Below are positions 34,821 through 59,049 of a stretch of DNA of 64,000 nucleotides, in pieces. Where the stretch lies: positions 33,172,001 through 33,236,000 of the forward strand of contig NC_065539.1 in assembly GCF_932294415.1 (NCBI RefSeq), given 5' to 3'. Under the pieces are notes generated by a model that saw only the letters and a list, made by a program, of their open reading frames with translations, was not told the DNA's origin and made no database searches. This DNA is from Quercus robur (lineage: Eukaryota > Streptophyta > Magnoliopsida > Fagales > Fagaceae). Positions within the stretch are counted from its first letter, which is position 1. Each line of letters starts with the position of its first letter. The position numbers and the translations under genes are program-made.

Positions 34821-34997
34821 TGTTAGAAATACTGAATGATTGTATTGTATTTCATAATCAAAGAATATACATGAATGCCTTTATATAGGAGGCATATGTG
34901 TGCAGTACAAGTAAGCCTATGTGTGTAGTACAAGTACAAGTGTGCTATACAAGTAAACTAGCTGGGCCTAAAGCCCATAACATAATATACATTAACA
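34821..34997 (-). repeat. Copia-2 3' LTR
   Basis: 177 bp, TGTTAGAAATAC ... ATTAACA, next to the purine tract. Confidence 0.9.
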
Positions 34998-35009
34998 GCC
35001 CCCCTCAAA

Positions 35010-35650
35010 CTCAAGGTGGATGTGAGACCAACTTGAGGTTGTCAACCAAATCACGAGTGCGTCCCTTAGGAAGTGACTTGGTGAAGATATCTGCAAGTTG
35101 ATTTTTGAAGAGACAGAGAAAAGCTTGAGAGCACCATGGACAAGATGATAACGGATAAAATGACAATCAATCTCAATGTGTTTAGTCCGTTCATGGAAGA
35201 CATCATTGTGAATAATATGAATGGCACTCTAGTTGTCACAATAAAGGGGAGTAGCAGAGGATGTGGACACACCCAAATTCTTAAGAAGCCATCGTAGCCA
35301 AAGGAGCTCAGATGTGGTATCAGCAAGAGCACGATATTCTACTTCAATACTGGAGCGGGCCACGAAAGTTCGTTTCTTACTTCACCAAGAAATGAAGGAA
35401 GAACCAAGGAGAAAGTAATAACCTATAGTGGACCTGCGATCAGTGGGATCTCCTGCCCAATCAGCATCAGAGAATGAACGAAGTACAAGAGGAGACTGAG
35501 CTGAGTAGAAAAGGCCATGGAAGAGAGTGCCCTTCAGGTATCGAAGTATGCGCAGAACAGCAGCATCCTGAGTTGATCATGGAGCAGACAGATACTGGCT
35601 CACCTAATGAACAGCATAAGAAATGTCTAGACGAGTAACCGTGAGATAAA
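35010..35650 (-). pseudogene. Copia-2 RNase H remnant
   Basis: Degraded copia RNase H region following RT on the minus strand; interrupted. Confidence 0.7.
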
Positions 35651-35749
35651 CTAGGCTGCCAACCAATCATCTATAAAGAGAAGGATTAGACACTGGTTCC
35701 CCCCCCTCCCGAATGTGTCAAATGCGCATTAAGCTCAACTGGAGTGTCA

Positions 35750-36480
35750 ACAGTTTTGCTATCAGTGAGTCCAGCTCGAGACAAAAGGTCAGAAGCATAC
35801 TTGGCTTGAGTAATATAGAGACCATCTGTGGAATGAGTAATTTCAAGACCCAAGAAATAGCTGAGATGTCCAAGATCTTTCATCTCAAACTGCTGACTGA
35901 GAAAATCCTTGAGTTCTTGAATGCCACTGAGGTCATCACCAATTATGATCATATCATCCACATATAGAAGAAGCAAAATAGTGCCTTTATCAGTGCGACG
36001 AAGAAATAAGGCATAATCATATGGACTGGCAGTGTAACCCAAGCGAAAGATAGTGGAGCTGAACTTGGCAAACCAAGCTCGTGGAGCTTGTTTAAGGCCA
36101 TAAAGTGCACGTCGAAGGTGACAAACCTTGTTTGATTTAACAGAGAGACTAGGAGGAGGTTGCATATAGACTTCTTCACTCAGATCCTCATTAAGGATGG
36201 CATTTTTAACATCCATCTGAAAAATATCCCATTTACTAGCAGCAGCAACAGCTAAGAGGGCACGAACAAAGGAGATACGAGCCACTGGAGCAAAGGACTC
36301 TTCATAATCAATCCCATACTCCTGTGTAAAACTTTTTGCAACAAGACGAGCCTTGTAGCACTTAATGTACCCATCAGAGTGAGTCTTGATCTTATAGATC
36401 CACTTACAACCAACCATAGGTTGTCCAGGAGGGAAAGTGACCAAATCCCAAGTATGGTTTTTGGTTAATGCATCAAGTTC
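35750..36480 (-). pseudogene. Copia-2 reverse transcriptase remnant
   Basis: RVT_2-type RT with CKWIYKIKTHSDGYIKCYKARL, FQMDVKNAILNEDL, LYGLKQAPRAWF and the catalytic LYVDDMIIIG. Confidence 0.9.
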
Positions 36481-37279
36481 CTCTTTCATTGCAATCTGTC
36501 ATAAATGGTCAGTGGAGGCCTCACGATAGGTCTAAGGCTCGAGAAGAGTAGCAAAGGTAGTGTAACAATAATAGTCAAGTAAATGAGGAGAAATGGATCT
36601 TACCCAGGTTAAGTGGCAAGGTGGAATGTCTTGTGGAGGATCTTCAGGTGGAGCAGGAGCAAGGGACCCAGGCTCAAGGTGGGGTAGCTCGTCATCAACC
36701 TGTTCATCTTCGACATGTCTAGGAGAAGCATCAAAAATATCTGGAGAGAAGTTCAAAGGAGGATCAAAAGTATTTGTAGAAAGAACAGGAGACTCATTTG
36801 GAAAGATTTCTAAAACAGAGGAGGTAGTTAGGGAAGAACGAAAGTGAGAAAGTTCAATAAACAATCGGTGTTCCCAAAAGACAACATTACAAGAAACACG
36901 AAAACGATGAGAGACAGGATCATAACACCTATACCCTTTTTGAGTTTCGCCATAACCAAGGAAACAACAAAGTCTAGATCGAGACTCAAGTTTGTTGTGC
37001 TCATGAGGTTGAAGGAGAACGAAACAGACAGATCCAAAGGAGCGAAGGTGATGATAGTCAGGGGGTGACCCAAACGGACGCTCATACGGGGTTTGATTAT
37101 GGATGACAGTGCTTGGAATGCGATTAATCGCATGAACAGCATGAAGAGCAGCTTCACCCCAAAATGGGGCAGGAACTTTGGCAGAAAGAAGAAGAGCACA
37201 AATAGTGTCAAGAATATGACGAAGTTTTTTTTTCGACTCGACCATTTTGCTAAGAGGTACCTGGACAAGTTAGATGATG

Positions 37280-37640
37280 TACAATGCCATAGGAATGTAA
37301 CAGAGCTTGAAACGCATATTGAGTATATTCAAGAGCATTATCAGATCGAAAAGTTTTGATATGTTTGGAGAATTGTGTTTCAACCATTTTTGCAAAGTTG
37401 CTGTATATTGGTAAAATTTCAGAACGAGATTTCATAGGAAAGATCCAACTATAACGAGAATAATCATCAATAAAAATAACAAAATATCGAGATCCACCAA
37501 TACTAGCAACAGGAGAAGGTCCCCGAACATCAGAATGAATTAACTCAAAAATACTATTAGAAATGGATTCACTGTTATTGAAAGGCAAAGCTGGCTGTTT
37601 TCCTAACTGACATGAAGTACAATCAAAATTGACTTTGGAC
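37280..37640 (-). pseudogene. Copia-2 integrase remnant
   Basis: Integrase core words CTSCQLGKQPALPF, ELIHSDVRGPSPVAS and FRSDNALEY. The C-terminal extension with 'GYGETQKGYRCYDP' continues at about 36550-37250. Confidence 0.85.
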
Positions 37641-37899
37641 ATAGAACCCAACAGACCCTTAAAAGCTAACTATTGTACCCGAGAATATGGTACATGACCA
37701 AGATGAGAATGCCAAAGTGCGAGAGATGGTAAGGAAGAAACTGCAGCAGCAACAAAAATAGGAGTAACAGGTGGAAGATGAAGATTGTCCACGGGAAACA
37801 TACGCCCAACTCTAGAACCGGTCCCAAGCTCCTGCCCCATCCTCAGATCCTACACAATGCACCTAGAATAGTAAAAAATAATGCGATAACCTAGTTCAG

Positions 37900-39136
37900 C
37901 TAATTGTCCCACAGAGCACAAATTATAGGATAGGTCAAGTACATGGAAGACTCCAAGAACGGAGAAGTTAGAGGTCGAAACAACACCTAGACTATTCCCA
38001 TACATGGTGGAACCATCAACTATATGAATATTTAGAGGATGTGGTGCAGGGCCAAGTTTGGAGAATAAGGATGAGTGAGGTGTCATGTGATTGCAACAGG
38101 CATAATCAAAAAGCCAAGTTTGAGACTTACCGGGTAGAACTGAGAGAGCAATGGAAAGAGATGCATTACCAGTCATACGAATAGCCTGAGCCATGATCTC
38201 CTGTAGTTCAGTGGGGGAGAAGTTGATAGCGGATCCAGAAGATTGGGTCTCAGCTGAAATGGAAGACATCGGCGAAGTAGGCTCAGTGTTAGCAACAGCA
38301 ACAGTAGATTTGTTGCGACGGTAACAAGTTTCAATGGTGTGGCCAGGACACTTGCAATAATTGCAGAACTTTTTGTTGGTCTGCTTGCGACGCTTGCTAG
38401 AGCCAGAGGAATCACCTGATTGTTGAGGTTGCTCTATGAGTGGAGCAGAAGGAGTAATAGCCAAAATATTGAGCTTATTCTGAGTTTGAAGGGTTGCAAA
38501 TCGAGCTTCTTCTCTAACCAACTCGTTCACAGCAGTATCAAGAGAGGGAGCAGGACTGCGATTTAGAAGCTAACCTCAAATGGGCTCAAAGTCATTGTGA
38601 AGTGACATCAGGAATTCATAGAGGCGAAATTCATCTCTAATGGAAGCATATTGCTGAGCATCCTTTAAGCATGCCCAAGTTGGATCAGAAAGGTCAATTT
38701 GGTCCCAAATGAAGCGAAGCTGATCATAGTAGTCATTGATGGATTGCCCTGGTTCTTGCCTGAGTTGATGCAATTCAACCACTAATTGATATTTCATGGA
38801 TCCATGAGTAGTGGAGTACCTTTTGGCCAACATATCCCATGCTAATTTTGCATCATCAAAGCTGCCCAACAGATTGGAGATGGAGGGAATGGAAGTGTTC
38901 CGAATCCATGTGAGGATTATGTGGTTGTGACTATCCCATTCAATCATGCGACCAAGGAAGGCAGCATCGTCTTCACTTGCTCCCTTGACAAGAATGGTGG
39001 CTACACCAATACAGTAATGCCAGAGCATGCAACCTTTAAGAAAACTGGGCATAGCTTGAGACCAAGATAAGTAATTCTTGTTTCCCTCCAATATAGTATT
39101 GATGGGGCGAGGAAGAAAAACATCTTTTTTATCCAT
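37900..39136 (-). pseudogene. Copia-2 gag and protease remnant
   Basis: Gag starts MDKKDVFLPRPINTILEGNK with the copia gag block 'WDMLAKRYS...LHQLRQEPGQSI'. It is followed by a CCHC zinc knuckle (CNYCKCPGHTIETC) and a protease-like segment (TWLFDYACCNHMT). Broken. Confidence 0.85.
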
Positions 39137-39798
39137 TTAGAGACACAATATGCAAAAACAGACTGGAAAAATGAAATCTACGCGAAAAACTGGGTAAGGA
39201 GAACCTGGACTGCAAAAGTCAACCCTAGAGAAAAGTCAACGGTCAAAGTCAATGGACGGTCAAAGTCAACGGTCAACGGATGGTCAAAGTCAATGGTTAA
39301 CATGGTCAACGGTCAGCAGATAACGTCACCAAGATGATGTGGCGCTGATGTCAACAGATGACTGGATGCTGACGTGGCATAGATGGCATCACGGGTGACG
39401 TCAGCTTGAACTGAGGATGGCACGTGTGGTGTGTGGGGTGCATGGGTCGCTGATGCAAAAACTTCTAGCGGCGCGTGAGGGCGTGTGCGGTCTCCGATGA
39501 TTGCGAGGCTTTCACCGGCGTGTAGATCGATTCAAGACGATCTCAGTGATACCTCCAGAAATGTGATCAGAGCAATATTCGCAGCGGGATGACACGTGTA
39601 GTGATTTGTGTAGTGTTGGACTCCTCAACGACAATGACTGCAGGTCTGGAACTCGAAGACAACGGCTGGAAGACATCGGAGGTTCAACGGCGAGAGGCTG
39701 TAGTGACTGTTGTGATGGCGGAAGCGATGTTGAAAGTGAAGTAACACCAATAAAGACAAGACTGTTAAGAAAAGGTCAGAGCAGTGGCTCTGATACCA

Positions 39799-39975
39799 TT
39801 TTAGAAATACTAAAGGATTGTATTGTATTTCATAATCAAAGAATATACATGAGTGCCTTTATATAGGAGGCATATGTGTACAGTACAAATAAGCATATGT
39901 GTGTAGTACAAGTACAAGTGTGCTATACAAGTAAACTAACTGGGTCTAAAGCCCATAACATAATATACATTAACA
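39799..39975 (-). repeat. Copia-2 5' LTR
   Basis: 177 bp, collinear with 34821-34997; adjacent to the primer-binding site. Confidence 0.9.
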
Positions 39976-39980
39976 AGCCT

Positions 39981-40792
39981 CATTCAAAAGGAAATGCATG
40001 CAAGGTTAAGTTCAATAGCTTCAACTACTCGAATTTTCAATATTCTTTTTTATTTCTCATCAAATGAATGACATTATTTTTGGGAAATCCTGGTCTTTCT
40101 TAGCATAATATTGGGAATATTTTTGCTATTACTCAAACAAGCATTAAATATTGTGCTTGGTTATTCGTGCATCTAGCAAAACAAATAAATGTTCCGTTCT
40201 TTTGGGCAGCCCAATGACATTAAATTTTTGTGTATGAATCTATTGACCCTGCATCGAATTGTTTGAAATTTGAACCCACTTTCAAAAAAATAATAATTAA
40301 TTGTTGTTTTATCTATAGTTGATCATAAAAAGTATTTAAAAAAAAAAAGCCTACATAATTCAACTCTTTCGAATAGTTGACAAAGTGTTGCAAATTTGTC
40401 TACAAAAGCAACATGCAATCAATCTCTTTTCATTTTGTTTTATTTATTTATTTATTTATTTTTTGACAAAGTTTAGCTATAAAATTGGTTGTAGTATAAA
40501 ACTACAATCTTACTCAATATCTTTTTATTGGAGGTAAATTTTGACAAATCCACTATTGGATTACATCTTTTTCTTATATCCTCCATGCTTACAAAATTTT
40601 TAAGAAATTAAAGATTAATAGCTATGTCTTCAATAAATTGTTCAAATGACATGTTTTGGTAGTTTAAAATTATGCATAAAATATAAGCTTATAAATTATA
40701 TAGTAAATCATATCTGATTGACAAAAAATTTAATATATATTAAGAATGTAAAGAACATGCAATTCAATGGTTAGATTTTCAAAATGTGTAAT
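39981..40792. other. AT-rich non-coding spacer
   Basis: No gene or terminal repeat recognised. Confidence 0.5.
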
Positions 40793-41605
40793 TGTTAGGT
40801 TCTGAAGATTTAGGAGTAAATATTTAAAATCATATTTTATTTGTGTCGGCAAACCAAGAACAAAACATGTTTAGTCTATGTATTAGGCAATGCTTAAAAG
40901 TATAGGTTTCGAGCTTCAAGTTCAGCTGACTACAGAAAAAGGGAGTCAATTTCAGTCAAGCTTGACCGATCGAGAATCGCAGAAATCAGATTCTGCAAAA
41001 GTTTTAAACAAGGCCCAATCTTACGAAAATGTTTAGGGTTTCATTCTAACTTGTCCACATATAAAAGGGAAACCCTAACTATGTTTTTTAAACTTTTGGA
41101 AAACTTGTGTGTTACTTTTTATGAGATTTGAGAGGTTTTGTACTTTCTAATTACACAAGAATCTACCGGAGCAAGATCTACAATCAAGTGGTAGTAGAAC
41201 CTAGTTGCTACTACAAGATCATTACTTCTGGTGATCTGAAACCTTTGAGTGAGATCTCAAAGTCACAAGCAAGAGTGCTTGTGTTGCTGTAAATCCAAGG
41301 AGAAAAGGAGTCCGTGAATTTGGAGCTCGCATGTGGTCGTGTCAGTAAATTACTACATGAGGTAGTAGTAGATTTAGGATTAAATCTTTTGTAAAAACTT
41401 CGATTCTCTTATAGTGGATTTACTTTACCTTAAGGATAGTTAGGTCAAATCATCCCTAGGTTTTTATCTGGAAACGGTTCGTTTCATCGGTTTTCCTAGG
41501 TCATCATATCGTGGTGTTATTTACTTTTCCGCTTTTATGCATGATATAATATATGCTTGTTTAACCTATACCTGAATAATAAACCTAATAATCAACTTGA
41601 GTAAT
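40793..41605 (+). mobile_element. Possible solo LTR fossil
   Basis: Begins TGTTAGGTTCTGAAG after gtaat, and gtaat recurs at about 41602. The interior has an acatataaaaggg TATA-like box followed by 'aaaccctaact' and a leader-like sequence typical of long plant LTRs. The right end does not show a clean CA, so the call is tentative. Confidence 0.35.
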
Positions 41606-42028
41606 AATGTTTATTTTATTGAGTAAGGTTATACTATTAGATTACAACTAATTTTATAACTAAACTTTATCCTTATTTTTTAAAGACCATAAAAGAATCT
41701 TTTATCCCTATATTTCATAAATTCTTACTAATCTCACAATTATAATAGTAGTCAAATAAAGAGGAATGGAAAGGAGGCTAAGAAGCGTGTGAGCCCCAAG
41801 TTTAACTAAATGAATATAATTTTTCCATTTCTAATTAATTATTTTTACGAACTCAAGGAGATCAGTTTAAAATCTCAAGGAGGTCATTTTAGTAGTTAGT
41901 AGTTAGTACATGCATCAAGATTTTCCACATTATCGGTGCAATTTGCACTTTCAAAACTATTCAGGTTCCACCATTGAATTGATCATAAAAATATAAAACT
42001 AATTGACCATCAAAATCAAGTATAATTT
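41606..42028. other. Non-coding spacer
   Basis: No feature recognised. Confidence 0.5.
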
Positions 42029-42705
42029 AGGGTGTGTTTGTTTGAAGGTGAAACGGGATGGATAGAAAATTTTGGAGAGAAAATGGGAAATAAAATTTTT
42101 TTGGAGCGTGTTTGGTTGGGTGGGAAAGAAGGAAAATAAATACTGGGACCCGTGTTTTCTCCCTAGACCCACCAAAATGTTTTCTCCCTAAAATGGAGAG
42201 AAAACGGAGTGGAGATGCATTTTTTCTTGATTCACAAAAATGCCCATGTGTTCGTCTACTTGCCTTTTTTTTCCTAGGCAGTAACATTGCTTCTTTTGAT
42301 TTTCTAGGGCTTGGGCGTGCCTCTCTTTCTTCTTCTTCTTCTTCTTCTTCTTCTTCTTCTTCTTCTTCTTCTTCTTCTTTTGGCAGTAACGTTGCCTTTT
42401 TTTTTTTTTTTTTAGCTAGATGTTGATTTTTTTTTACATGATTTTTATTTTTTTAATAAATTTGGGTGATTGCTCTCTCTTTTATTTTTTGGTTATTTGT
42501 CACTTTTTTGTTTTAATTGGACATCATTATTTAACAATGGTATATGATCAAATTTATTCAAACTCATTTTTTCCATCCCTTCATTTTTCCACTCCCAACC
42601 AAACAAAAATGAGAGAAATTAAAATATTTTTTATCCACCCACTTTTTCATCCTTCCACAATTTTTTATCCTCTCACTTTTTCACCCTTCCAACCAAACGG
42701 ACCTT
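42029..42705. mobile_element. hAT-like MITE with (CTT)n
   Basis: The left end AGGGTGTGTTTGTTTGAAGG is inverted relative to the right end ccttccaaccaaacggacct. The arms carry repeated 'ggagagaaaa' and 'tttttcayccttcca' words. A (CTT)n microsatellite occupies about 42327-42378. No transposase; target duplication not clear. Confidence 0.6.
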
Positions 42706-43215
42706 GAACCATCACCCTTACGAGTCCGAGAGTTGTAGTTTGCTGGCTTAATCCATTCATAAGTGAGTCCTTGATCTGCTTTGAACTAATCTCAAATCAT
42801 TTCATGATTTCTCACTCCCGTTTCGATTTGACTCCTTTGATTTTCCCTTGATTATTAGCTAATTCTTGTTTTAATTGCTTCATAACTCAAATCTATTGCA
42901 ATTATTGACTATTGTTACTAAAGATCATTATTAATTAATAGCAAATTATACGGTAGTTTCCTCTTGTTTAATAATGAACAGATAAAAGTAGGTTGACTTG
43001 GGGGTTGCAGGTGAAGAACATATGTGTCATGAAATATTTTTTTATTAAATAGAAAATTAGAAATACTTCTGGCACATGCTCATATTTCATTACTTATTGC
43101 ACAATTCGAAAGAAAAAAGAATTGCATAATTTCAAATCTTAAAAAGAAGGAAAAGAAAATGTGTAGTCAAACTAGCTACAAACTTATTTCCCAAGAAAGA
43201 GAACATCATTATTGG
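42706..43215. other. Upstream region of GST 43271
   Basis: Non-coding. The last 130 bp recur in decayed form at about 28800-28989. Confidence 0.5.
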
Positions 43216-43222
43216 TATAAAT
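43216..43222 (+). promoter_or_regulatory. TATA box of GST 43271
   Basis: TATAAAT followed immediately by TGACTTGG, 49 nt before the ATG. The same TATA plus TTGAC arrangement is found in the other GST copies. Confidence 0.6.
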
Positions 43223-43270
43223 TGACTTGGCATGGTCCTAGACCTCACACCTTGATCCCCCTCATTACTA

Positions 43271-44575
43271 ATGGAAGAAGTAAAGCTATTAGGATTCTGG
43301 CCTAGCCCCTTCAGTCATAGAGTGATATGGGCTCTAAAACTGAAGGGTGTGAAATACGATTATCTGGAAGAAGACCTTCCCAATGAGAAGAGTCAATTGC
43401 TATTGCAATACAACCCAGTTCACAAGAAAATCCCTGTCCTTGTTCATGGCGGCAAACCAATTGTCGAGTCCTTAGTCATTCTTGAATACATTGAAGAAAC
43501 ATGGCCCGACAATCCATTGCTGCCAAAAGATGCCCATGCAAGAGCCTTAGCTCGATTTTGGATACAGTTTGGATTACAGAAGGTAAGTTTGATCTTCATT
43601 GGGATTCCTTTTCTGATACTTCTTGTTATAAATCTGATTTCTTTTCTACTTAAGTAGAAGATAGCATATCTCTTTTATTAACGCAGTATAGCATACTACC
43701 GAATTAGAAAAAGTACTTATGTCATTTTCTTTAAGATACGTGGGTCATTTACTTCTTGGCCAATTAAGTTGACTTTTATCTAATGCAGGCTAAAAACATT
43801 AAAATGACTACAAATTTTACTATAAACAGTTTACAAATTTACAAATTGACGTAATAATAAATATGATTATCGTAATCTTAAATAAATATCTGAATTTTCT
43901 TTTAATGATTAATGACACATCAATTTATAAAGAAATTGATGTAAAGTTTATGTGCAATACAATTTTAAGAGAGTTTTAATCGGAGATTGAACCTCAAATC
44001 TCTTATTCAACCATTCAAAACTTTATCAATTAAACTAACTAGAACCCCCCATATTCTTAATACTACTCTTTTGAAAATATAACATGATCGTCTAAGTCTT
44101 CTGCTTGGCTTATGTAAGCCCAATATGGTCTAATCCAGTAATAATCATTTTTAGCACGTGTAATTTGAAATAATATTTTTGACTGATTCTATATATTAAT
44201 TTCTAGGCCCCCATTTTTCACGCATTTTTCCAAACCACTGGAGAAGAACAAGAAAAGGCAATAAAAGAGGCACAGGAAGTTTTTAAGATCTTGGAAGAGA
44301 AAGCTCTAGGGAACAAGAAGTTTTTCAGTGGTGACAGTATAGGGATGGTTGACATTTCATATGGATGGTTAGCTTATTGGTTTTCTGGCATGGAAGAAGC
44401 AGTGGGTGTCAAAGTGCTAAATCCGAGAACTTTTCCACGCCTGCATTCTTGGATTCAGGATTTTAAGGAAGTTCCTGTGGTCAAAGAAAACCTTCCTGAC
44501 TATGCAAATATGGTGACCTATATGAAGTTCATGAGGGAAAAATTCACTTCACACCTTCCATGTCATAATCACTAG
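43271..44575 (+). CDS. Tau-class glutathione S-transferase (MEEV type)
   Basis: Exons 43271-43582 and 44207-44575, with donor gtaagt and acceptor ttctag; 226 residues. It begins [18 protein letters not shown] with probable catalytic Ser12. KKIPVLV (52-58) and VES (66-67) form the glutathione site. The C-terminal domain has [44 protein letters not shown] and a slightly longer tail (LPCHNH). A second tau subfamily, closest in this window to the 61354 gene. Predicted cytosolic glutathione transfer to electrophiles; the substrate cannot be read from sequence. All splice signals and reading frames are intact. Confidence 0.95.
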
Positions 44576-44898
44576 TGTTGTGTATGAACTAAGCTCCTTT
44601 TTTTTTCTGCTAAAAAAAAATTGGGAATCTTTAGATTTTACAGAAGTTTTAAAATTTGGAATTTACCCTCTGAAATTTTATTCTATTTGCATTAGTAGTC
44701 ATTTCATCCATAGTTTCTGTTAATTGCCATATAAACTTATCATGCATATTTAATTTATCTAATAAAATAATATCACGTTATTTTTGTAACTTAAAAAAAC
44801 TATGAATAATTTTAAAAATTGAAGTTGTTTAATGAAAATAATGCGACATCATTTTATTAGATAAACTAAACACACATGATAAGCTTATATGACATTTA
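44576..44898. other. 3' flank of GST 43271
   Basis: AT-rich; no separate gene. Ends at the MITE. Confidence 0.5.
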
Positions 44899-45213
44899 GG
44901 GTGTGTTTGGATTGAACTTATTGTTGCTGAAACTAAAAACTGAAAACTAAAAACTGAAAACACTGTAGTAAAATAATTTTTAAATGTGTAAATAGTACCG
45001 TGGGACCCATTTTTAATATTTTTTAATGAATAAAGTGGCTGTGGGTTCCATAAACAGTACTGCTACAGCACCGCTACAGTACCGCTACAGTGCCACTACA
45101 GTGTTGTTTGTCCCCCTTTTCTGCAAAACGTGTGAAATGTAAAAAAAAAAAAAAAAAAAAAAAAGAGTGAAAACGCAGACGCAGCAAAGTTCAGTGCTAT
45201 CCAAACGAGCACT
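44899..45213. mobile_element. hAT-like MITE
   Basis: The ends GGGTGTGTTTGGAT and ATCCAAACGAGCAC are inverted. The core has 'ctgaaaactaaaaactgaaa', 'accgtgggaccc' and a run of (gctacagtacc)n repeats at 45061-45100. An A-run lies at 45140-45163. Confidence 0.65.
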
Positions 45214-47047
45214 TAATGAAAAAGATGGATAGAGATGCTGATAATGCAAATAGAATATGACTACTGATTGGTGTCTTGGTCTGATGACAAAGAGCAATCA
45301 TCAGAAGCGGACGTCATAGGTTGAAACTCTCTTAAATATAAAATCCAAAAACACCCAAATTTAGGATGTTGTTTGTACTTTAATTTTTTTTTTTTTTTTT
45401 TTTTAAGAATATATAAAATTATGAGCTAGCTTTGAACTTTGAAGAATACTTCAATTATTAGCATATACAATGCTTGTTATGAATTTAACAACATGTGGCG
45501 GATGGATTTTACTCCAACAAATTTGTGATGTATCAAATTTGAAATAATATCTTATCTAATCATTCCATAAATATATTTAAGCACATGGCGAACTTTCACA
45601 TTAGCATTCTATTTGAAAAGAATCCTAATAAAACCAAATTAGTTTGTTTAATGGAGTCCAAATATTCTATACCATTTTTCTTGCTCCACCAATAATAATT
45701 TTCCATATGTCCACCAATTTAATTCAAATCAAATTTTCAGCCTTTATTATTTAGTTTCCTAAAATAAATAAATAAAAAATCCAAATCATCCCCACTAGCC
45801 ACCATCATAGTTCCTCCACCACCACCAAAAATAACCTTCGTTGACACCACCAAGAGGAGATGGACGGCGTCATCAACGGCCAGCCACCCACCACCGCAAG
45901 TTATCAGTTACCCAAAAAATAGAAAATAAAAAGAACCCCACACACCCACACCAACCACCACCACCAACCTTCATCGGTACCACTAGGAAGAGATCTCCGG
46001 TGACATCAACAGCCATCCACCATTGCCTCCTTGTCTTCAAATCCATGACTGATATTAGTTTTGTGACACCTTGTTCATGGGTACTCATGGGCCATGACTA
46101 CCTTTCTTCTTCAAATCCATTGATGGTACCTAAACATGGCAATAATGCGGCATTGATGGTGTCGCCATCTCTACCTGGCGGCCTTGGACAATGGTGGTGG
46201 ACCGTTGGTGATTGATTGGTGATGGATGTTGGTTATAATCCTAAAATACCTCACCTCACACTCACAATCTCTTCAACCGCCTCTCATCTCTTTCTCTTCA
46301 GCTCACCACTCTAACTCATGCTCCTCTCCCACTCTTACTTACTCTCCTCTCATGTATCACGCTGTCGGCCATCAAATGTCAGCCGCCCTCTCTCATGCTC
46401 TCAACATCTCGACCTCACTCTCTTTGCCGAAGAAGACGAAGACGAAGACGAAAATCTAAGATTCTCGCCGCAAAGCCTCTCCGATCTCACCCAATTTCGT
46501 TCAATATTGCTCCCTATATTTGCTTTGCACCGAGTTTAGTGATAGCTGAAGCCAACAACCACAACCACGGTGATTTACGACAATGGTTTTAAATGTTCTT
46601 CTTCCATTTTTTCTTTATTTGATTAATGGGTTTGGGGATTTAGATTCTCTTTGTTTAACTTGTGGGTTTGGGGATTTAGATTTGGTTGTTAAGATTTGAT
46701 GTTCCTTGCATGTGCTTGTTTTAAATTTTGATTTCAAATGTATTTGGTTTTCGTGAATAGTTTGATTTCAAATGTATTTGGTTTCTGAGAATAGGAAATT
46801 TGAATGGGTATGGTGGATTTGATTTGAGATTTACTTGGATTTGTTGTTTGTGTTGTTGTGATTCTTTTTTCTCAGGAAAACATAATTTTTTTTATTGATT
46901 GGGCCATTGTTAGGGGTTGAAGATTAGGCCCTGAAGTGGCCTGGCTAGGCGGGGCCCGACAGGGCAGGTCTAGGCCCCAGGAAAAAAAAATTCCATTTAA
47001 TAGACGAGTTGTGGGTCGAGTCCAGGTATGAAATAACCCAACCCAAA
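45214..47047. other. Non-coding region, part CT/CA-rich
   Basis: 45780-46560 is C-rich (ccaccacc..., ctctc...) with several short overlapping open frames, none recognisable. It could be a captured UTR/exon fragment of a host gene. 46905-47045 carries a 'ggcctggctaggcggggccc' GC-rich word set. No gene is called. Confidence 0.4.
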
Positions 47048-47966
47048 CCTAGCTTGTTGCCATTCCTATTTAAAATATATAGAGATTAGCTTGCCGTTAT
47101 TGCAACCCAAAAAAAAAAAAAAAAAAAAAGCAAAGATCTCGACCTTGACATAAGTATATATATTTGTATGTAATACAAAATAAAGGATTTTTTTACCCTT
47201 TTTTTTTGGCTTATTTTAATATTGATACATAATTTGTTAAAATACAAAAATTTGATAGATGACATAGTTATTACTTATCACTTCTTGATTACCTTGAATT
47301 TTTTCAAATATAGAGAGTATAAAAAAATATATAATCTAACCATGAATTTGTAAAAATTCATATTCAACATTAAAATATTAGATATCCTCAATGTAGGAGC
47401 TCTCCCTCTCGCCTGACGAGTTTTTTCTCCCTTAGTTTGTCTTAAGGGTCTGTCTTTTAGCTTTCTTTCTTGGTGCTCAATGGCTGACGAAGTGATTCAT
47501 AGCTTGGAAAACATGAAACTAACCCCGGAGGAGGAGGAAGTGATAGAGGTATCTGACGAAGGAAGACAAGAGGAGATTGAGAGTTGTACACTAAGCTTAC
47601 TGGGAAAGCTTCTCACGTGTAAACCATTCAACAAAAAGGCAGCGATAAACACATTTAAGAAGGCGTGGGGGTTAGAAGAAGGAGTTCACAACATGGAGGT
47701 GGGCTCAAATCTGTTTCAATTCAAATTCCAAAAAGAGTTTGAGATGAAAAGGGTTTTCAAAGGAGGCCCTTGGACGTTCGACAACCAAGCACTTATGCTT
47801 TGTCGGTGGCAGATGGGTTTGACAGCACGTAACGTGAAGTTTGATTCAATACCGATGTGGGTGCAAATTTGGGACGCACCATTTGACATGGTTTCTCCCA
47901 AGGTGGCCGTGGAAGTGGGGAGTAGGTTGGGAGTGGTAGTAGAGGAGGAGAAGCGACTGAAGCTTG
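47048..47966 (+). repeat. Duplicated block, copy A (LINE flank + LINE 5' end)
   Basis: Nearly identical to 50411-51327. It differs by poly-A length and a few single bases. It consists of 337 bp of sequence upstream of the LINE, including the LINE target site (cattaaaatattagata, 47368-47384), followed by the first 582 bp of the LINE. Confidence 0.92.
47480..47966 (+). pseudogene. LINE ORF1 N-terminal part, truncated copy
   Basis: Starts MADEVIHSLENMKLTPEEEE and encodes the DUF4283-type RNA-binding-like domain (LLGKLLTCKPFNKKAAINTF, GGPWTFDNQALMLCRW). It is cut at 47966 by the join to Copia-2-derived sequence. Here the frame is uninterrupted at the point where the complete LINE copy has an extra A. 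Confidence 0.85.
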
Positions 47967-47974
47967 TAGAAAGA

Positions 47975-50410
47975 GTTCAAAGGAGGATCAAAAGTATTTG
48001 TAGAAAGAACAGGAGACTCATTTGGAAAGATTTCTAAAACAGAGGAGGTAGTTAGGGAAGAACGAAAGTGAGAAAATTCAATAAACAATCGGTGTTCCCA
48101 AAAGACAACATTACAAGAAACACGAAAACGATGAGAGACAGGATCATAACACCTATACCCTTTTTGAGTTTCGCCATAACCAAGGAAACAACAAAGTCTA
48201 GATCGAGGCTCAAGTTTGTTGTGCTCATGAGGTTGAAGGAGAACGAAACAGACAGATCCAAAGGAGCGAAGGTGATGATAGTCAGGGGGTGACCCAAACG
48301 GACGCTCATACGGGGTTTGATTATGGATGACAGTGCTTGGAATGCGATTAATCGCATGAACAGCATGAAGAGCAGCTTCACCCCAAAATGGGGCAGGAAC
48401 TTTGGCAGAAAGAAGAAGAGCACAAATAGTGTCAAGAATATGACGAAGTTTTTTTCGACTCGACCATTTTGCTAAGAGGTACTTGGACAAGTTAGATGAT
48501 GTACAATGCCATAGGAATGTAACAGAGCTTGAAACGCATATTGAGTATATTCAAGAGCATTATCAGATCAAAAAGTTTTGATATGTTTGGAGAATTGTGT
48601 TTCAACCATTTTTGCAAAGTTGCTGTATATTGGTAAAATTTCAGAACGAGATTTCATAGGAAAGATCCAACTATAACGAGAATAATCATCAATAAAAATA
48701 ACAAAATATCGAGATCCACCAATACTAGCAACAGGAGAAGGTCCCCGAACATCAGAATGAATTAACTCAAAAATACTATTAGAAATGGATTCACTGTTAT
48801 TGAAAGGCAAAGCTGGCTGTTTTCCTAACTGACATGAAGTACAATCAAAATTGACTTTGGACACAGAACCCAACAGACCCTTAAAAGCTAACTATTGTAC
48901 CCAAGAAGATGGTACATGACCAAGATGAGAATGCCAAAGTGCGAGAGATGGTAAGGAAGAAACTGCAGCAGCAACAAAAATAGGAGCAACAGGTGGAAGA
49001 TGAAGATTGTCCACGGGAAACATACGCCCAACTCTAGAACCGGTCCCAAGCTCCTGCCCTGTCCTCAGATCCTGCACAATGCACCTAGAATAGTAAAAAA
49101 TAAGGCGATAACCTAGTTCAGCTAATTGTCCCACAGAGCACAAATTATAGAATAGGTCAAGTACATGGAAGACTCCAAGAATAGAGAAGTTAGAGGTCGA
49201 AACAACACCTAGACTATTCCCATACATGGTGGAACCATCAACTATATGAATATTTAGAGGATGTGGTGCAGGGTCAAGTTTGGAGAATAAGGATGAGTGA
49301 GGTGTCATGTGATTGCAACAGGCATAATCAAAAAGCCAAGTTTGAGACTTACCGGGTAGAACTGAGAGAGCAATGGAAAGAGATGCATTACCAGTCATAT
49401 GAATAGCCTGAACCATGATCTCCTGTAGTTCAGTGGGGGAGAAGTTGATAGCGGATCCAGAAGATTGGGTCTCAGCTGAAATGGAAGACATCGGCGGAGT
49501 AGGCTCAGTGTTAGCAACAGCAGCAGTAGATTTGTTGCGACGGTAACAAGTTTCAATGGTGTGGCCAGGACACTTGCAATAATTGCAGAACTTTTTGTTG
49601 GTCTGCTTGCGACGCTTGCTAGAGCCAGAGGAATCACCTGATTGTTGAGGTTGCTCTATGAGTGGAGCAGAAGGAGTAATAGCCAAAATATTGAGCTTAT
49701 TCTGAGCTTGAAGGGTTGCAAGACGAGCTTCTTCTCTAACCAACTCGTTCACAGCAGTATCAAGAGAGGGAGCAGGACTGCGATTTAGAAGCTAACCTCA
49801 AATGGGCTCAAAGTCATTGTGAAGTGACATCAGGAATTCATAGAGGCGAAATTCATCTCTAATGGAAGCATATTGCTGAGCATCCTTTAAGCATGCCCAA
49901 GTTGGATCAGAAAGGTCAATTTGGTCCCAAATGAAGCGAAGCTGATCATAGTAGTCATTGATGGATTGCCCTGGTTCTTGCCTGAGTTGATGCAATTCAA
50001 CCACTAATTGATATTTCATGGATCCATGAGTAGTGGAGTACCTTTTGGCCAACATATCCCATGCTAATTTTGCATCATCAAAGCTGCCCAACAGATTGGA
50101 GATGGAGGGAATGGAAGTGTTCCGAATCCATGTGAGGATTATGTGGTTGTGACTATCCCATTCAATCATGCGACCAAGGAAGGCAGCATCGTCTTCACTT
50201 GCTCCCTTAACAAGAATGGTGGCTACACCAATACAGTAATGCCAGAGCATGCAACCTTTAAGAAAACTGGGCATAGCTTGAGACCAAGATAAGTAATTCT
50301 TGTTTCCCTCCAATATAGTATTGATGGGGCGAGGAAGAAAAACATCTTTTTTATCCATTTAGAGACACAATATGCAAAAACAGACTGGAAAAATGAAATC
50401 TACGCGAAAA
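47975..50410 (-). mobile_element. Copia-2-derived internal fragment
   Basis: Collinear with 36751-39188 of Copia-2, about 99% identical by eye, in the same orientation. It covers part of integrase, protease and all of gag, with no LTR at either end and no target duplication. It is a fossil segment that arrived by DNA copying or recombination, not by its own integration. Confidence 0.92.
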
Positions 50411-51327
50411 CCTAGCTTGTTGCCATTCCTATTTAAAATATATAGAGATTAGCTTGCCGTTATTGCAACCCAAAAAAAAAAAAAAAAAAAACAAAGATCT
50501 CAACCTTGACATAAGTATATATATTTGTATGTAATACAAAATAAAGGATTTTTTTACCCTTTTTTTTGGCTTATTTTAATATTAATACATAATTTGTTAA
50601 AATACAAAAATTTGATAGATGACATAGTTATTACTTATCACTTCTTGATTACCTTGAATTTTTTCAAATATAGAGAGTATAAAAAAATATATAATCTAAC
50701 CATGAATTTGTAAAAATTCATATTCAACATTAAAATATTAGATATCCTCAATGTAGGAGCTCTCCCTCTCGCCTGACGAGTTTTTTCTCCCTTAGTTTGT
50801 CTTAAGGGTCTGTCTTTTAGCTTTCTTTCTTGGTGCTCAATGGCTGACGAAGTGATTCATAGCTTGGAAAACATGAAAACTAACCCCGGAGGAGGAGGAA
50901 GTGATAGAGGTATCTGACGAAGGAAGACAAGAGGAGATTGAGAGTTGTACACTAAGCTTACTGGGAAAGCTTCTCACGTGTAAACCATTCAACAAAAAGG
51001 CAGCGATAAACACATTTAAGAAGGCGTGGGGGTTAGAAGAAGGAGTTCACAACATGGAGGTGGGCTCAAATCTGTTTCAATTCAAATTCCAAAAAGAGTT
51101 TGAGATGAAAAGGGTTTTCAAAGGAGGCCCTTGGACGTTCGACAACCAAGCACTTATGCTTTGTCGGTGGCAGATGGGTTTGACAGCACGTAACGTGAAG
51201 TTTGATTCAATACCGATGTGGGTGCAAATTTGGGACGCACCATTTGACATGGTTTCTCCCAAGGTGGCCGTGGAAGTGGGGAGTAGGTTGGGAGTGGTAG
51301 TAGAGGAGGAGAAGCGACTGAAGCTTG
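50411..51327 (+). repeat. Duplicated block, copy A' (flank + LINE 5' end)
   Basis: Second copy of 47048-47966. Here the LINE continues uninterrupted beyond the block end, so this copy is the one attached to the complete LINE. Confidence 0.92.
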
Positions 51328-52052
51328 AGGCACAACGGCTGTTCATGCGAGTCCGGGTTGCTATTCCGATTTCAAAACCGATAAGAAAGGGAGGCTTTGT
51401 GGCGGGATCAGATGGTACTCGGTACTGGGTTAAATTCAAGTATGAGCGACTGCCGTTGTTTTGTCACTACTGTGGGTTGCTGGGTCATGATCTACGTCAC
51501 TGCGCCAGTTACTACGCGGCATCAAAGAACAGCGGCGACGTGATGTGTCAGTACAGCGACTGGATGAAGGCGGTTGGCTCACGGACTTGGTCGCCAACGA
51601 GAAACAAAGCTAGGAACGACGAGGAGGAACTATTCCGTTCACAAAAACACAGACCTGAACGGCAGTATGAGACAGTGGCTGTCGGATCTATCTTTACAAC
51701 CCAGACGGAGGAGGAGACATGTGGAAAAGGAAATGACGCACAGTACGGAACGGACCCGGATTTTCAGGAAATTATTACAAGCAATAATGAGGGGTCTGAA
51801 ACGGATGCAGCAAAAGTGATGCCGCAACATGTGGACATTATTATGGGAGTTTTAAATCCGGAAACTCGTGGATTTTCAACGGAAAGTAACGCACAGAGAT
51901 CATTGGAGGAGGTGGCATTAAATATGAATCATGAAGAAGGTGATTCAGAGGCCATAAATAAAAAGGAGGCACGTGAGCCACTATTAGCAAAACAGGAGCA
52001 CGTGTTAGACAAGTCTAAACCAATTGGGCTTGCTAACTCAAAGCCCAAATAG
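50840..52052 (+). pseudogene. LINE ORF1 (DUF4283 + CCHC knuckle), one frameshift
   Basis: ATG at 50840. A one-base insertion at about 50876-50880 (gaaaac for gaaac) throws off the first dozen codons. From 50901 the frame is open to 52052. It encodes the DUF4283 domain, basic linker RVRVAIPISKPIRKGGF, and a CCHC knuckle CHYCGLLGHDLRHC (C-x2-C-x4-H-x4-C). A low-complexity acidic C-terminal region follows. Such ORF1 proteins bind the LINE RNA. Confidence 0.85.
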
Positions 52053-52255
52053 ACTAGACTTTCTCGTATGGATGGACTAAAGGGCTTAAGTGATGATGAG
52101 CCCACAAACTTATTGGGTAAGAGGCGGCCCTTACAGATCACAGACGAGGATACTAATGAAGATTCAGTGAAGCAGCAAAGGAAGAAGAGCAAGACACAAG
52201 ACGATGATATACCATATGCAGCGGCGGGGGTGATGGTTCACCCTTGCCGACCACA

Positions 52256-55200
52256 ATGAAGCTCCTCAGTTGGAACTGCCAAGGGCTTGGGAACCCTTGG
52301 ACAGTTCGAAGCCTTCGTAAAATTATGAAGGAACAAGCTCCTGCAGTTTGTTTTTTGATGGAAACAAGGCTGGATAAAAAAGGTTTTAAGAAACATTGTG
52401 GAAACCTAGACTTATATTATCCAAATCAAGTCATTGTTAAGCAACCTAACTCTGGGGGAGGTTTGGCACTGTTATGGAAACATGAGGTGATGGTAGATGT
52501 TATAAACTATGCTAAACATCATATCCTAGCAAAGGTGGTAGAGGATGATGGCTTTCAATGGTATTTGACGGGTTTTTACGGGTGGGCAGAAGCGAGTCAG
52601 AAGCCAAAATCTTGGGCATTGCTCTCTCATTTGGCTTCCTTTGTTGACGGTCCATGGTTGTGCATTGGTGACTTTAACGCTGTATTACACTCCTCTGAGA
52701 AACTAAGCAGCCGGCCTCCTATCTATAGTCAAATGGATGAGTTTCGACGAGCTTTGGAACCATGCCAGTTATCAGACTTGGGTTTCATCGGTTACCCTTA
52801 TACTTGGAACAACAAGAGACCAGGACTTGCAAACACAAGGCAGCGGCTTGATCGAGCTGTGGCATCAGAAAGCTGGAGAGCGAAATTCTCGGTCAGTTCA
52901 GTAACCCACTTATTTTCCCATGCATCCGACCATTTACCTTTGATCCTTCAGACAGGGACTTTTAAGAGAGTGGTGGCAAGGGGTTCAAATGGTTTTAAAT
53001 TCGAGGAGTCTTGGTTGTTATGGGAGGAATGTGAAGAATGTGAAGAAGTAGTTCAAGATGCTTGGAACAGGTTGGATAGAGGAAATACGGGTTTGACTAA
53101 GATCAAGGACAGGATTGCCAGCTGTGGGAGGGATTTACATGCATGGGGTTCCATCAGAACACACCCGGACAAGGATAAAATCAAGCAACTCCAGAAGAAA
53201 GTTGAAGCAATCAGTATGGGCGAATTGACAGAAGGTAATAGATCAGAATTTGTTACAGCAAGTAAAGAGTTGGATAGCCTTTTGTTGAGGCAAGAAATAT
53301 ATTGGGCACAAAGGTCTCGTATCTCTTGGCTAAAACATGGTGACAGAAATACCAAGTTTTTTCACTTAAAAGCTTTACAACAGAGACAGAGAAATTTTAT
53401 TCAGGGAATCAAGGACAAGGACAACAACTGGATTGAAGAGATTGATGATATTGCGGGGGTGGTAATAAACTATTTTGAGAATATGTTCAAAACAGGGGGT
53501 TGTGATCAGATGGAGGAATGTATTGCGGCAGTTCAACATAAGGTGGCCCCACACATGGTGGAGATCTTATCCAGTGAATATAGCACAGACGAAGTGCAAA
53601 CAGCTTTGTTCCAAATGGGACCAACGAAATCGCCAGGACCTGACGGTATGAATGCTCTCTTTTACCAAAAATTTTGGCATATTGTTGGGGATGATGTGAC
53701 TAATGCTGTGTTGCACTTTTTAAATTCTGGAATTATGGATCCTGAGATTATGTTCAAAACAGGGGGTTGTGATCAGATGGAGGAATGTATTGCGGCAGTT
53801 CAACATAAGGTGGCCCCACACATGGTGGAGATCTTATCCAGTGAATATAGCGCAGACGAAGTGCAAACAGCTTTGTTCCAAATGGGACCAACGAAATCGC
53901 CAGGACCTGACGGTACGAATAATGCTCTCTTTTACCAAAAATTTTGACATATTGTTGGGGATGATGTGACTAATGCTGTGTTGCACTTTTTAAATTCTGG
54001 AATTATGGATCCTAAGATTAACTACACTTATATTGTCCTTATTCCCAAGTTAAAGTCACCAGAAAAAATGTCTGACTATAGACCTATTAGCCTTTACAAT
54101 GTAATTTACAAGATTATTTCAAAAGTTTTGGCCAACAAATTGAAGAAAATTTTACCCCAATTGATTTCCCCTACCCAAAGTGCTTTTGTGCCGGGTCGGC
54201 TTATTACTGATAACATCCTGGTGGCATATGAAACACTACATACTATGCATAGGCGTAAAAAGGGTAAAAAAGGGTCTCTTGCTTTGAAACTGGACATTAG
54301 TAAAGCTTATGACCGGGTTGAGTGGACCTTCCTCAAGAGCATAATGGTGAAGATGGGTTTTCCGGATGTTTGGATAGACCGGGTGATGTGTTGTGTATCC
54401 ACCTCTTCTTTCTCTGTTAAAATTAATGGTAAAACTTATGGTAATATCATACCTACTAGAGGGCTCCGTCAAGGAGACCCTCTATCTCCTTATCTGTTTC
54501 TCTTATGTGCAGAAGGTTTCACTTCTTTATTGGCAAAGGCGGAGATGGAGAATCGGATCCATGGGGTGTCGATATGCAGACGAGCACCTAGTATTACTCA
54601 TCTTTTGTTTGCAGATGACTCTTTATTATTCTGCCAAGCCAAGCAAGATGAAGTTAAGGTGATAATGGATACCTTGCAGCTGTATGCCAGGGCTTCTGGT
54701 CAGTGTATCAATTTGGAGAAGTCTTCAATTTACTTTAGCAGTAACACAATGGCGGAACAAAGGGAATGGATAAAAAATAATTTGGGTGTAAAGGAGGTGA
54801 ACAGATTTGAGTCATATTTGGGACTCCCAACACTGATTGGCCGCTCAAAATACCAAACTTTCTCTTTTCTTAAAGATAGGGTTTGGAAAAAGCTGCAAGG
54901 ATGGAAAGGGAAATTATTATCAAGAGCCGGCAAGGAGGTGCTCATAAAAGCAGTTGCACAATCAATACCAACCTACACAATGGGGGTATTTCAATTACCG
55001 GTTAAGCTTTGCAACGAACTCAATGCTATGTGCGCTAGATTTTGGTGGGGACAAGTTGGCAATGAAAGAAAGATTCATTGGAGGAGTTGGGACATACTGT
55101 CTACTCCCAAAAAGGAGGGGGGAATGGGTTTTCGTGATATTCGAAGTTTCAACCTAGCGATGCTAGCCAAGCAAGGATGGAGGTTGATGCAAGGAAAAGA

Positions 55201-56668
55201 CTCATTGTTGCTTAGTTGCTTCAAAGCGAAATACTTTCCTAGATGTGGGTCTTTAGAGGCAGTGGACGTTCCTAACAGCTCCTTTGTTTGGAAGAGTATT
55301 TTGGCAGCTCAAGGAATCCTGGAGAGAGGACATTGCTGGAGGGTTGGTAACGGATTGGGAATTCGGGTTACAAAGGATAGGTGGATCCCAAAGCATCCGA
55401 CTAATAAGGTGATTCATGCAGTTCCAGATGAAGAGTGGGAATGGAGAGTGGCAGATTTAATTGATTGGTCAACTCATACATGGGATAGCTAACTCATAGG
55501 GGAGAAGTTTCACAGTGATGATGCAACTGCTATTCTCCGAATTCCATTAAGTCGGAGACTCATTCAGGACTCTATCTATTGGATACACAATAGGAAGGGT
55601 GAGTACACAGTTAAATCTGGATACCAAATAGCCAGGCAGATTGAAAAGGAGAAAAATATGCAGGGGGAGTGCTCCAATGCAAGGACGAGTGAATCTGTGT
55701 GGAGTACGCTATGGAAACTCCATATCCCAAACAAACTTAAGATTTTTGGTTGGAGATTCTGTCATGATATATTACCCACACATGAAAACCTAGTTCAAAA
55801 AACAATTATTGAGGACCGGACCTGTCAACTATGTACAAGAGGAGATGAAACTACATTACATGCGCTTTGGGAATGTAGTGTGGCTCAAGATGTGTGGGCC
55901 GGGAGTATCAAGAAGCTGCAAAAGGAATCTTGTGATGTGCATGACATAAGATAGTTGGTGGAGACGTTGACACACAAACTAAACTTGGAGGAGACCGAGC
56001 TATTTTTTGTGCAGGCATGGCTGATATGGTCACAGCGGAATTTGGTGCTGCATGGAGGGATGTTACAGGACCCATCTCGGCTGGTTCAGAGAGCAGCGGA
56101 CCTTCTGAAGGAATTCAGGGAGGCTCAGGTTCAGCTGGTGGCTTCCTTGAACGCACCGAGAGATTCACAATGAAGACCACCAGCAGCTAACGGCTTCAAG
56201 CTTAACTTCGATGCCACTATATTCCACGATATACATGCGTCGGGACTTGGAGCAGTTATTAGAAATGATTCGGGGGAGGTAATGGTGTCCATCTCAGCTA
56301 AAGGACCAGCGGTATTTGACAGTGAGGAGGCCAAAGTGCTTGCTTGCAGAAAGGCTGTGGAGTTTGCTGTGGATTCGGGGTTTCATAGTGTGATTATTGA
56401 GGGAGATAACTGCACTGTAATGAACGACATCATTTCTACTCTCAGGATGTGTACCAACCTGTCCAGATTAGGGCACTTGTACGAAGATATAGGCTGTATT
56501 ATTTTGGGTCTACAGTATGTGTCATTTAGTTGTGTGTGTAGGTCTGCTAATGCTGTAGCGCACTCACTAGCTAGATTTGCTAGAACTGCTGAGGATAAGG
56601 TTATATGGTTGGAGGATATCCCTCCACCTGCTCTACAAGCTCTGTATGAAGATTCTATTTCCATTTAA
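52256..56668 (+). pseudogene. LINE ORF2 (endonuclease, RT, RNase H), four stops
   Basis: Begins MKLLSWNCQGLGNPWTVRSL, the exonuclease/endonuclease/phosphatase fold, with VCFLMETRLD, GDFNAVL and SHASDHLPL catalytic blocks. The RT follows with SDYRPISLYNVIYKIISKVL, the FADDSLLF catalytic motif (about 54608) and 'GLRQGDPLSPYLF'. Then a zf-RVT block (WSTLWKLHIPNKLKIFGWR) and an RNase H of RVT_3 type (FKLNFDATIF, 56190-56668). The frame is constant throughout but stops occur at 53945 (TGG to TGA), 55490, 55952 and 56171. A 267-bp tandem duplication lies between endonuclease and RT. Confidence 0.9.
53483..54019 (+). repeat. 267-bp tandem duplication in LINE ORF2
   Basis: Copy 1 is 53483-53749 and copy 2 is 53750-54019 (three bases longer through an added aat). 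The unit is 89 codons, so the frame is preserved. It includes KSPGPDG of RT domain 0/I. Copy 2 alone carries the TGA at 53945. Confidence 0.93.
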
Positions 56669-57346
56669 ATAAACATCGAGTCCACTGTAAAAAAAAAAAA
56701 AAAAAAAAAAACATTAAAATATTAGATAGGTTTAAGTTACACCTAGTGTAACTTGACAAGAGTTACACCATTTGTAAACCGTAGATTTATAATTGATCTA
56801 ATAGTGAAAAAATAGCATTAAATGCTAACTGACTTACACCTTATTCACTTAATTAATAGCAATTTTTTTTCTCTCTACTTATTTATTATTTAAAACATTT
56901 TACATATATTCCTTTTTTTGCCAATGACTTTACAAATATATTTGCAATACTTTTTTCTTTTTTTTGGGTTGAGTTCATACTATTTTTTTTTTCTTCTTTT
57001 AAGCCGGTCATAATCTTATAGTGAATCTGGGCTAACCCTGGTGCAATTACTCCCTTTTCTTTTGGCTCTCTGCTAGGCACTTAGCTCCTCCTCATGGGCT
57101 GGGTTAAGAGCAAGAGATGGGTGGACTTCTTCAACCCAGATTCACAATCTGTGGAATGGGCTACAATGTGGTTGAAGACGGTTGAGAATTTTTTATTATG
57201 TAATAACACCAATGTGACACCCTACAACGAATCAACATAGAATAAGATGTGATGATGGATTATTTAACGGCTCCGGAATAAGCTTGCACATATGACAAAC
57301 TTGTGCAAGCGAGAACTATTAAATGAGCACGAAATGGCTAAGAATA

Positions 57347-57523
57347 TGTTGGGGAAATAAACACCTTGGGGAGCTTCCTTAAGTAATTAATATAACATAT
57401 AGAGACACACTTTAACCCAAAAGGCCTAAGCCCAATGGGTATGTGCTCAATTATGTTATATTAACCACTCATTCTTCTCATCTTTATTCAATGTGGGACT
57501 TCACTCACACGTGTAACCCAACA
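57347..57523 (-). repeat. TRIM LTR 1
   Basis: 177 bp; first bases tgttggggaaataaacacc differ slightly from the other two copies. Confidence 0.88.
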
Positions 57524-57891
57524 ATCTCCCCCTCACATGTGAGTTTGCCTATTTATGGGCTTCAGGACCTCTTTTGTGGGCCATGAATAAGTCCTTCTCA
57601 CTCCCCCTTGCCTAATGGGCTTTTCACTTTATCAGCGCGTCATCCATGGGTCTCTCGTACGCCATCCATGGGAACCACGTGTCAACCCCGCACGCACATC
57701 CATGGGAACCCCATACGTCCATGTCCATGGGAACCTCGCACCACACCATTATTTAGCACCATTTTTTCTTTCTTTTTTCTTCTCCAGGATCTTTGTGTGT
57801 GGGCCGTTTAGGCTTTCTCTGTCCCCGCTGGGTAGGGACCATAAACAACTCACCGCCTTCGTCGCACACCACCATGGGCTCTGATACCACT

Positions 57892-58068
57892 TGTTGGGGG
57901 GATAAACAACTTTGGGAGCTTCCTTAAGTAATTAATATAACATATAGAGACACACTTTAACCCAAAAGGCCTAAGCCCAATGGGTATGTGCTCAATTATG
58001 TTATATTAACCACTCATTCTTCTCATCTTTATTCAATGTGGGACTTTACTCACACGTGTAACCCAACA
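57892..58068 (-). repeat. TRIM LTR 2
   Basis: 177 bp, shared between the two tandem units. Confidence 0.88.
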
Positions 58069-58440
58069 ATCTCCCCCTCACATGTGAGTTTGCCTCTTTA
58101 TGGGCTTCAAGACCTCTTTTGTGGGCCATGAATAAGTCCTTCTCACTCCCCCTTGCCTAATGGGCTTTTCACTTTATCAGCGCGTCATCCATGGGTCTCT
58201 CGTACGCCATCCATGGGAACCATGTGTCAACCCCGCACGCACATCCATGGGAACCCCGTACGTCCATGTCCATGGGAACCCCGTACGTCCATGTCCATTA
58301 TTTAGCACCATTTTTTCTTTCTTTTTTCTTCTCCAGGATCTTTGTGTGTGGGCCGTTTAGGCTTTCTCTGTCCCCGCTGGGTAGGGACCATAAACAACTC
58401 ACCACCTTCGCCACACACCACCATGGGCTCTAATACCACT

Positions 58441-58617
58441 TGTTGGGGGGATAAACAACTTTGGGAGCTTCCTTAAGTAATTAATATAACATATAGAGAC
58501 ACACTTTAACCCAAAAGGCCTAAGCCCAATGGGTATGTGCTCAATTATGTTATATTAACCACTCATTCTTCTCATCTTTATTCAATGTGGGACTTCACTC
58601 ACATGTGTAACCCAACA
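58441..58617 (-). repeat. TRIM LTR 3
   Basis: 177 bp, only about two or three differences from LTR 2. Confidence 0.88.
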
Positions 58618-59049
58618 AAATATTGTGCAGTATCGCATACCTTTGCTCTCTTAATTGGATTTACGTTGGCATTGGCGGAAATTGTTAATGATCTAAGGCA
58701 GAGAAAAGAGTGTCTATGTACAAAACCCTTGTAAACTAAAAAGAAATTGTACACTAATTTTATTGATTCCGTGTACAGTGTCAAATCCTTTTTTTTTTTA
58801 CCTTCTTTTCAATTTTTCACCACAATGAAAATAAGATTGATTTCTGGTTTTGGACGCTGGTGTTTAAAATGTGATCCCCAGTAAAATCTGATGTAACCTT
58901 TTTCCCATTTAAGACTTGGAAAGATTTTACAGATTTTAATTCACATGTGTCACTTTTCCTTCTTCAACTCAACTTTCCAAAATTTCAACTACATCTTTGA
59001 GGGACTTGAGTGATTGAGGAGAGAGAGAGCAGAGAAAAACGTGAATTAT

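Follow-up and report, generated by a model that had tools for sequence, protein, structure and literature searches.

Layout of the locus

In the window, i.e. the whole stretch of 64,000 nucleotides that was analysed, a Copia-2 element lies upstream of a LINE, and a piece of the Copia-2 interior recurs between two copies of a block taken from the LINE flank and the LINE 5' end. "Copia-2" and "LINE" are the labels of the initial annotation and agree with the features found. The features are as follows:

34821..39975, minus strand: Copia-2 element with two ~177-bp LTRs and the 5-bp target duplication AGCCT
36750..39188, minus strand: segment a in the local Copia-2, the donor; 99% identical to the fragment, 37 private bases in common
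36774..36784, plus strand: probable patch template TTGTAGAAAGA, in none of 28 family loci
39189..47044, no strand assigned: spacer (segment b), 7,856 bp
47045..47966, plus strand: block copy 1 (segment c), 340 bp of flank including the LINE target duplication and the first 582 bp of the LINE
47367..47384, plus strand: LINE target-site duplication ACATTAAAATATTAGATA, 18 bp, first copy; further copies at 50727 and 56711
47967..47973, plus strand: patch TAGAAAG at the left join, probably templated
47974..50410, minus strand: Copia-2 interior fragment, broken by stops, without LTRs
50408..50410, plus strand: AAA microhomology at the right join
50408..51327, plus strand: block copy 2, running on into the remaining LINE, with a derived extra A at 50876
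50745..56710, plus strand: LINE with poly(A) tail, downstream target duplication at 56711

The initial annotation had reported a 917-bp block that occurs twice. Self-comparison of the window together with an exact bookkeeping of positions confirmed the repetition and set the sizes at 922 bp for the first copy (47045-47966) and 920 bp for the second (50408-51327). Each copy consists of ~340 bp of flank that ends in the 18-bp LINE target duplication, followed by 582 or 583 bp of the LINE 5' end, and 2 substitutions plus 3 indels (2, 1 and 1 nt) distinguish the two copies. The interval between them is filled by 2,437 bp of Copia-2 interior, preceded by a 7-nt patch. If 36750-39188 is called a, 39189-47044 b and 47045-47966 c, the native order a-b-c has become a-b-c-a-c (abc to abcac), all in direct orientation. 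This is the DUP-NML-DUP layout, in which two duplicated segments in native order enclose a single-copy spacer; for spacer b no second copy of high identity was detected in the self-comparison of the window or, for its last ~1 kb, in the genome. When we compared 47045-47384 with the genome, the second block copy was the only match at 99%, and among the best 40 of 725 candidates the block flank (~337 bases) matched only its two places here plus one weak row touching its last bases. The LINE/Copia/LINE arrangement is real and is confirmed.

The LINE label is supported by a DUF4283 domain, which in LINEs is typical of plants, by the poly(A) tail and by the target duplication. In L003, an independent LINE insertion, the first base corresponds exactly to 47385 and the sequence extends past the position of 51327, so the LINE 5' end is fixed independently. 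Six substitutions separate the LINE part of the block from L003 and all six are common to both block copies, and the extra A at 50876 is peculiar to copy 2, neither copy 1 nor L003 having it. The reading frame that starts at 47480 in copy 1 stays open past the site of this A and through the join to 48037. For the upstream repeat we compared the relatives at six of the seven other loci (L040-L045, leaving out L046). Two of them, L040 and L042, cross 47045 at ~80% identity and the other four stop at 47002-47009; three further rows of the genome search (on C5, C37 and C39) also span 47045. As relatives of the upstream repeat cross 47045 and L003 crosses 51327, the left edge of copy 1 and the right edge of copy 2 are native, and the new joins are those at 47966/47974 and 50408-50410.

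The LINE target duplication is present in triplicate; thus the rearrangement postdates the LINE insertion and LINE reverse transcription was not its cause. A LINE reverse transcriptase that switched from LINE to Copia RNA would be in keeping with the LINE sequence on either side of the fragment, but Copia lies on the strand opposite to the LINE reading strand, and neither block copy starts at the LINE 5' end as retrotransposition of a LINE would have it. The ~340 bp of non-LINE flank and the target duplication in both copies refute this route, and we give it practically no weight.

Origin and divergence of the Copia-2 fragment

The Copia label is supported by the LTRs, the target duplication and a match to Pol_BBD, which in the fragment is above its Pfam cut-off; gag and integrase (rve) fall below theirs. 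The LTR pair of the Copia-2 element differs by 9 substitutions over ~177 sites, and the element looks older than the LINE. The 2.4 kb between the block copies had been described as Copia-2 interior with no LTRs and no target duplication, and neither is present at the fragment; the LTR ends and 5-bp target duplication expected of a retrotransposed Copia are both seen in the donor.

Fragment 47974-50410 corresponds to window positions 36750-39188 in the same orientation; their alignment spans 2,439 columns and contains 24 substitutions and one 2-nt indel. Four in-frame stops are common to the fragment and the local Copia-2 when these two copies are compared. The genome search with the fragment scored the best 40 of 823 candidates, which makes the count of the Copia-2 family a lower bound. 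Among the matches listed (41 rows) the local Copia-2 showed 99% identity, the next place 94% and the remainder at most 93%. Besides the fragment and the local copy at least 38 other places were listed, and the 28 that were returned as loci (L011-L038) were used as the family sample. The fragment and the local Copia-2 have 37 bases in common that occur in none of these 28 loci. These comparisons identify the local Copia-2 copy, ~11 kb upstream, as the donor, as far as the assembly allows. The initial annotation had placed a template 11 kb away in the same orientation, which was borne out. It had also allowed for another genomic copy as the donor, and this is ruled out by 99% against 94% among the matches listed and by the 37 private bases held in common. 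The alignment to the Copia-2 family that it had proposed for finding the closest donor returned the local copy (28 loci, best 40 of 823 candidates).

The Copia copies diverge more than the block copies do (24/2439 against 2/917, Fisher p=0.025). Nineteen of the 24 differences fall within 37642-38501, corresponding to 48864-49723 in the fragment. This tract was picked after the data had been seen, and a permutation test on the best tract gives p=0.006. Outside the tract the Copia rate (5/1578) is about the same as the block rate (2/917; Fisher p=1.0), which is a prediction of a single event and equally of a tandem duplication followed by a deletion. Polarised by the commoner family base, 14 of the 24 differences are changes in the local copy and 10 are changes in the fragment. 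Gene conversion of the tract by another family copy is unsupported, as within the tract none of 11 of the 28 loci exceeds ~93% identity to either copy and 19 of the 37 common private bases fall there. Family variation, in the same 11 of 28 loci, is ~7-10% within the tract and 5-7% either side. A faster-mutating stretch is the likelier explanation of the tract. With a 1.5-fold rate allowed, clustering persists (p ~0.0007) and is not fully explained.

The two joins

The left join runs from LINE sequence up to 47966 (..CTTG) through TAGAAAG into Copia sequence from 36750. The 11-mer TTGTAGAAAGA is found at 36774, at 47964 across the join and at 47998 within the fragment, and nowhere else on either strand of the window. 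When 60,000 random 60-mers were generated so as to preserve the neighbour frequencies, 8 contained the 11-mer and 348 contained its last 8 letters. At the position of the patch template 24 of the 28 family loci read TTGTAGAAGGA and none reads TTGTAGAAAGA. As the patch bears a base that is private to the local Copia-2 among the copies compared, the local copy or its fresh duplicate is the simplest template. The initial annotation had described an 11-nt match to 36774-36784 followed by a slip back to 36751; the 11-mer stands and the re-entry is at 36750. With up to 2 mismatches allowed, the left-join sequence matches once in the 785,749,727 bases searched. By the definition given in the available part of PMC10923293, a templated insertion of TMEJ takes at least 6 nt from the flank of the join and has microhomology anchors, and the patch shows both.

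That the patch is Copia sequence continued beyond 36750 and then mutated is less likely, for the local copy has CTGGAGAGA there and not one of the 28 family loci contains TAGAAAG. A similar TAGAGAG, one base further out, is found in 4 of the 28, so that on sequence alone a short, heavily altered continuation stays a conceivable, if less likely, origin of the patch. An assembly chimera or false duplication is also very improbable: the patch holds a copy-private base, the block copies and the Copia copies each bear later mutations of their own, and the locus sits in a contig of 54.6 Mb.

For the right join an overlap of AAAC had been claimed. We found AAA, i.e. 3 nt; the run of As numbers four in the join and five in the local Copia, with five in 27 of the 28 family loci and six in the remaining one. 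Random local joins overlap by at least 3 nt in ~6% of cases, so the microhomology of the right join is weak evidence when taken alone. The patch is the stronger evidence.

Mechanism and comparison with known rearrangements

The reading that we favour, with a probability of roughly one half, is a single event in which a local template was copied and the product closed by joining of the polymerase theta type. The LINE would have inserted downstream of the older Copia-2, and a break would then have occurred in its 5' region. Repair would have duplicated ~0.92 kb of flank and LINE 5' end, one DNA end entering the nearby Copia-2 via the 3-nt AAA match and copying 2.4 kb of it in the same orientation, after which the copied end would have been joined to the LINE end. 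At this last step the LINE 3' end may have paired through TTG at a point 24 nt inside the Copia end and copied TAGAAAGA (8 nt) before its release, to re-anneal at 36750, 34 nt back, via a single common A and then be sealed. The scar at the left join would fit, step for step, the pattern of extension, release and reannealing by polymerase theta. Against the single-event account, a stagger of 0.92 kb is long for nick fill-in. The greater divergence of the Copia copies, with its clustering in one tract, also counts against it, as does a right-join overlap that chance would give in about 1 of 16 joins.

The observed sequence, with the same two joins, is also exactly what two successive steps would yield: a tandem duplication of 36750-47966 (11,217 bp) whose join holds the patch, then a deletion of 7,856 bp (39189-47044) from the second copy via AAA. 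This route makes a local donor and direct orientation obligatory, and deletions between short repeats are frequent in plant retrotransposon DNA, which counts in its favour. It requires, however, two independent events in a short time, the block copies being only 2/917 apart, and the second copy of the spacer that it postulates is untraced in the window or, for its last ~1 kb, in the genome. We regard it as an unlikely but serious alternative. Block-Copia-block would likewise result if a small circle of block and Copia piece had integrated here through homologous recombination within the block, but this needs the same two joins to form the circle plus a third step, and no observation demands a circle. 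Its chance is slighter still than that of an assembly error.

A replicative route by FoSTeS/MMBIR, in which a stalled fork jumps back to Copia-2, slips once, copies 2.4 kb and jumps on to 47045, would account for the DUP-NML-DUP layout, the microhomology, the slipped patch and the uniform orientation. Interspersed duplications with microhomology in humans are put down to template switching in the part of PMC6258378 available. Break repair is nevertheless expected to leave the same sequence, and a patch whose template lies no more than 24 nt from the joined end is just as typical of end joining, if not more so; this route seems doubtful, a little more so than duplication with deletion. The locus had been read as serial template switching. 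Template-directed copying, microhomology and the slipped patch are retained from that reading, and the single serial replicative event is not established, since copying during break repair with polymerase theta joining fits as well or better and the two-step route fits the same sequence. We put forward tentatively, at somewhat less than even odds, that serial template switching in one natural plant event may have made the 0.92-kb duplication and brought in 2.4 kb from 11 kb away, with a patch whose copy-private base records its template and with every switch readable to the base.

Rearrangements of this kind are already known in plants and animals, and the locus is a clean example. Vaughn and Bennetzen reportedly dealt with tandem and filled duplications of rice in 2014. 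The abcac layout in human disease is named DUP-NML-DUP in the accessible text of PMC11658439. With the human cases there and in the accessible text of PMC6258378 the locus shares two duplicated segments joined to each other, a single-copy spacer and microhomology at the join; here the scale is in kilobases and the event lies between transposable elements. For Arabidopsis, the available part of PMC10923293 describes templated inserts of TMEJ that arise by extension, dissociation and reannealing, with a mean microhomology of 3 bp. Our locus resembles these polymerase theta insertions in its short patch, whose template lies only tens of bases from the joined end, and in its 3-nt anchor, here as read from the sequence.

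Rice insertions are often tandem duplications, some of them longer than 1 kb, for which repair of adjacent nicks is given as the cause; the share of tandem duplications is down to 5% of events by 200 bp (PMC7971508, part available). Rice duplications may also contain filler DNA that originates no further than 200 bp from the break, often from multiple sources (review PMC7407515, as far as its text was accessible). The present locus is like those described in these portions of the two sources in that the target block was directly duplicated at the insertion; it is longer than most, and its 2.4-kb insert comes from far beyond the 200 bp of PMC7407515. In vertebrates, filler DNA is captured proximally at breaks (PMC2671141, available part). 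Common to that repair-mediated duplication and our case are a donor on the same chromosome, microhomology with filler and insertion within a transposable element; the target duplication of 0.92 kb is extra here. The accessible portion of PMC2671141 distinguishes a proximal class (donor within 5 kb, longest 619 bp) from a distant one of up to 3,424 bp. With 2.4 kb from a donor ~11 kb upstream, our case is alike in mechanism and lies outside the proximal class.

As the donor, the native order and the joins are readable to the base, with a diagnostic base in a patch of 7-8 nt, the locus is a useful worked case of the duplication and scrambling of transposable elements in genomes by routes other than transposition. 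It can also serve as a test case for one-event template switching against tandem duplication plus deletion.

Other repeats were noted in the window. An LTR-like unit of ~178 bp occurs three times, at 57347, 57892 and 58441 (57347-58618), with a spacing of ~545 bp and a primer-site-like TGGTATCAGAGCC on the minus strand; it looks like a tandem small LTR element of the form LTR-interior-LTR-interior-LTR. Self-comparison of the window also revealed a 278-bp direct repeat with 97% identity inside the LINE (53476-54020) and a 141-bp direct repeat with 95.7% identity at 11962-12233.
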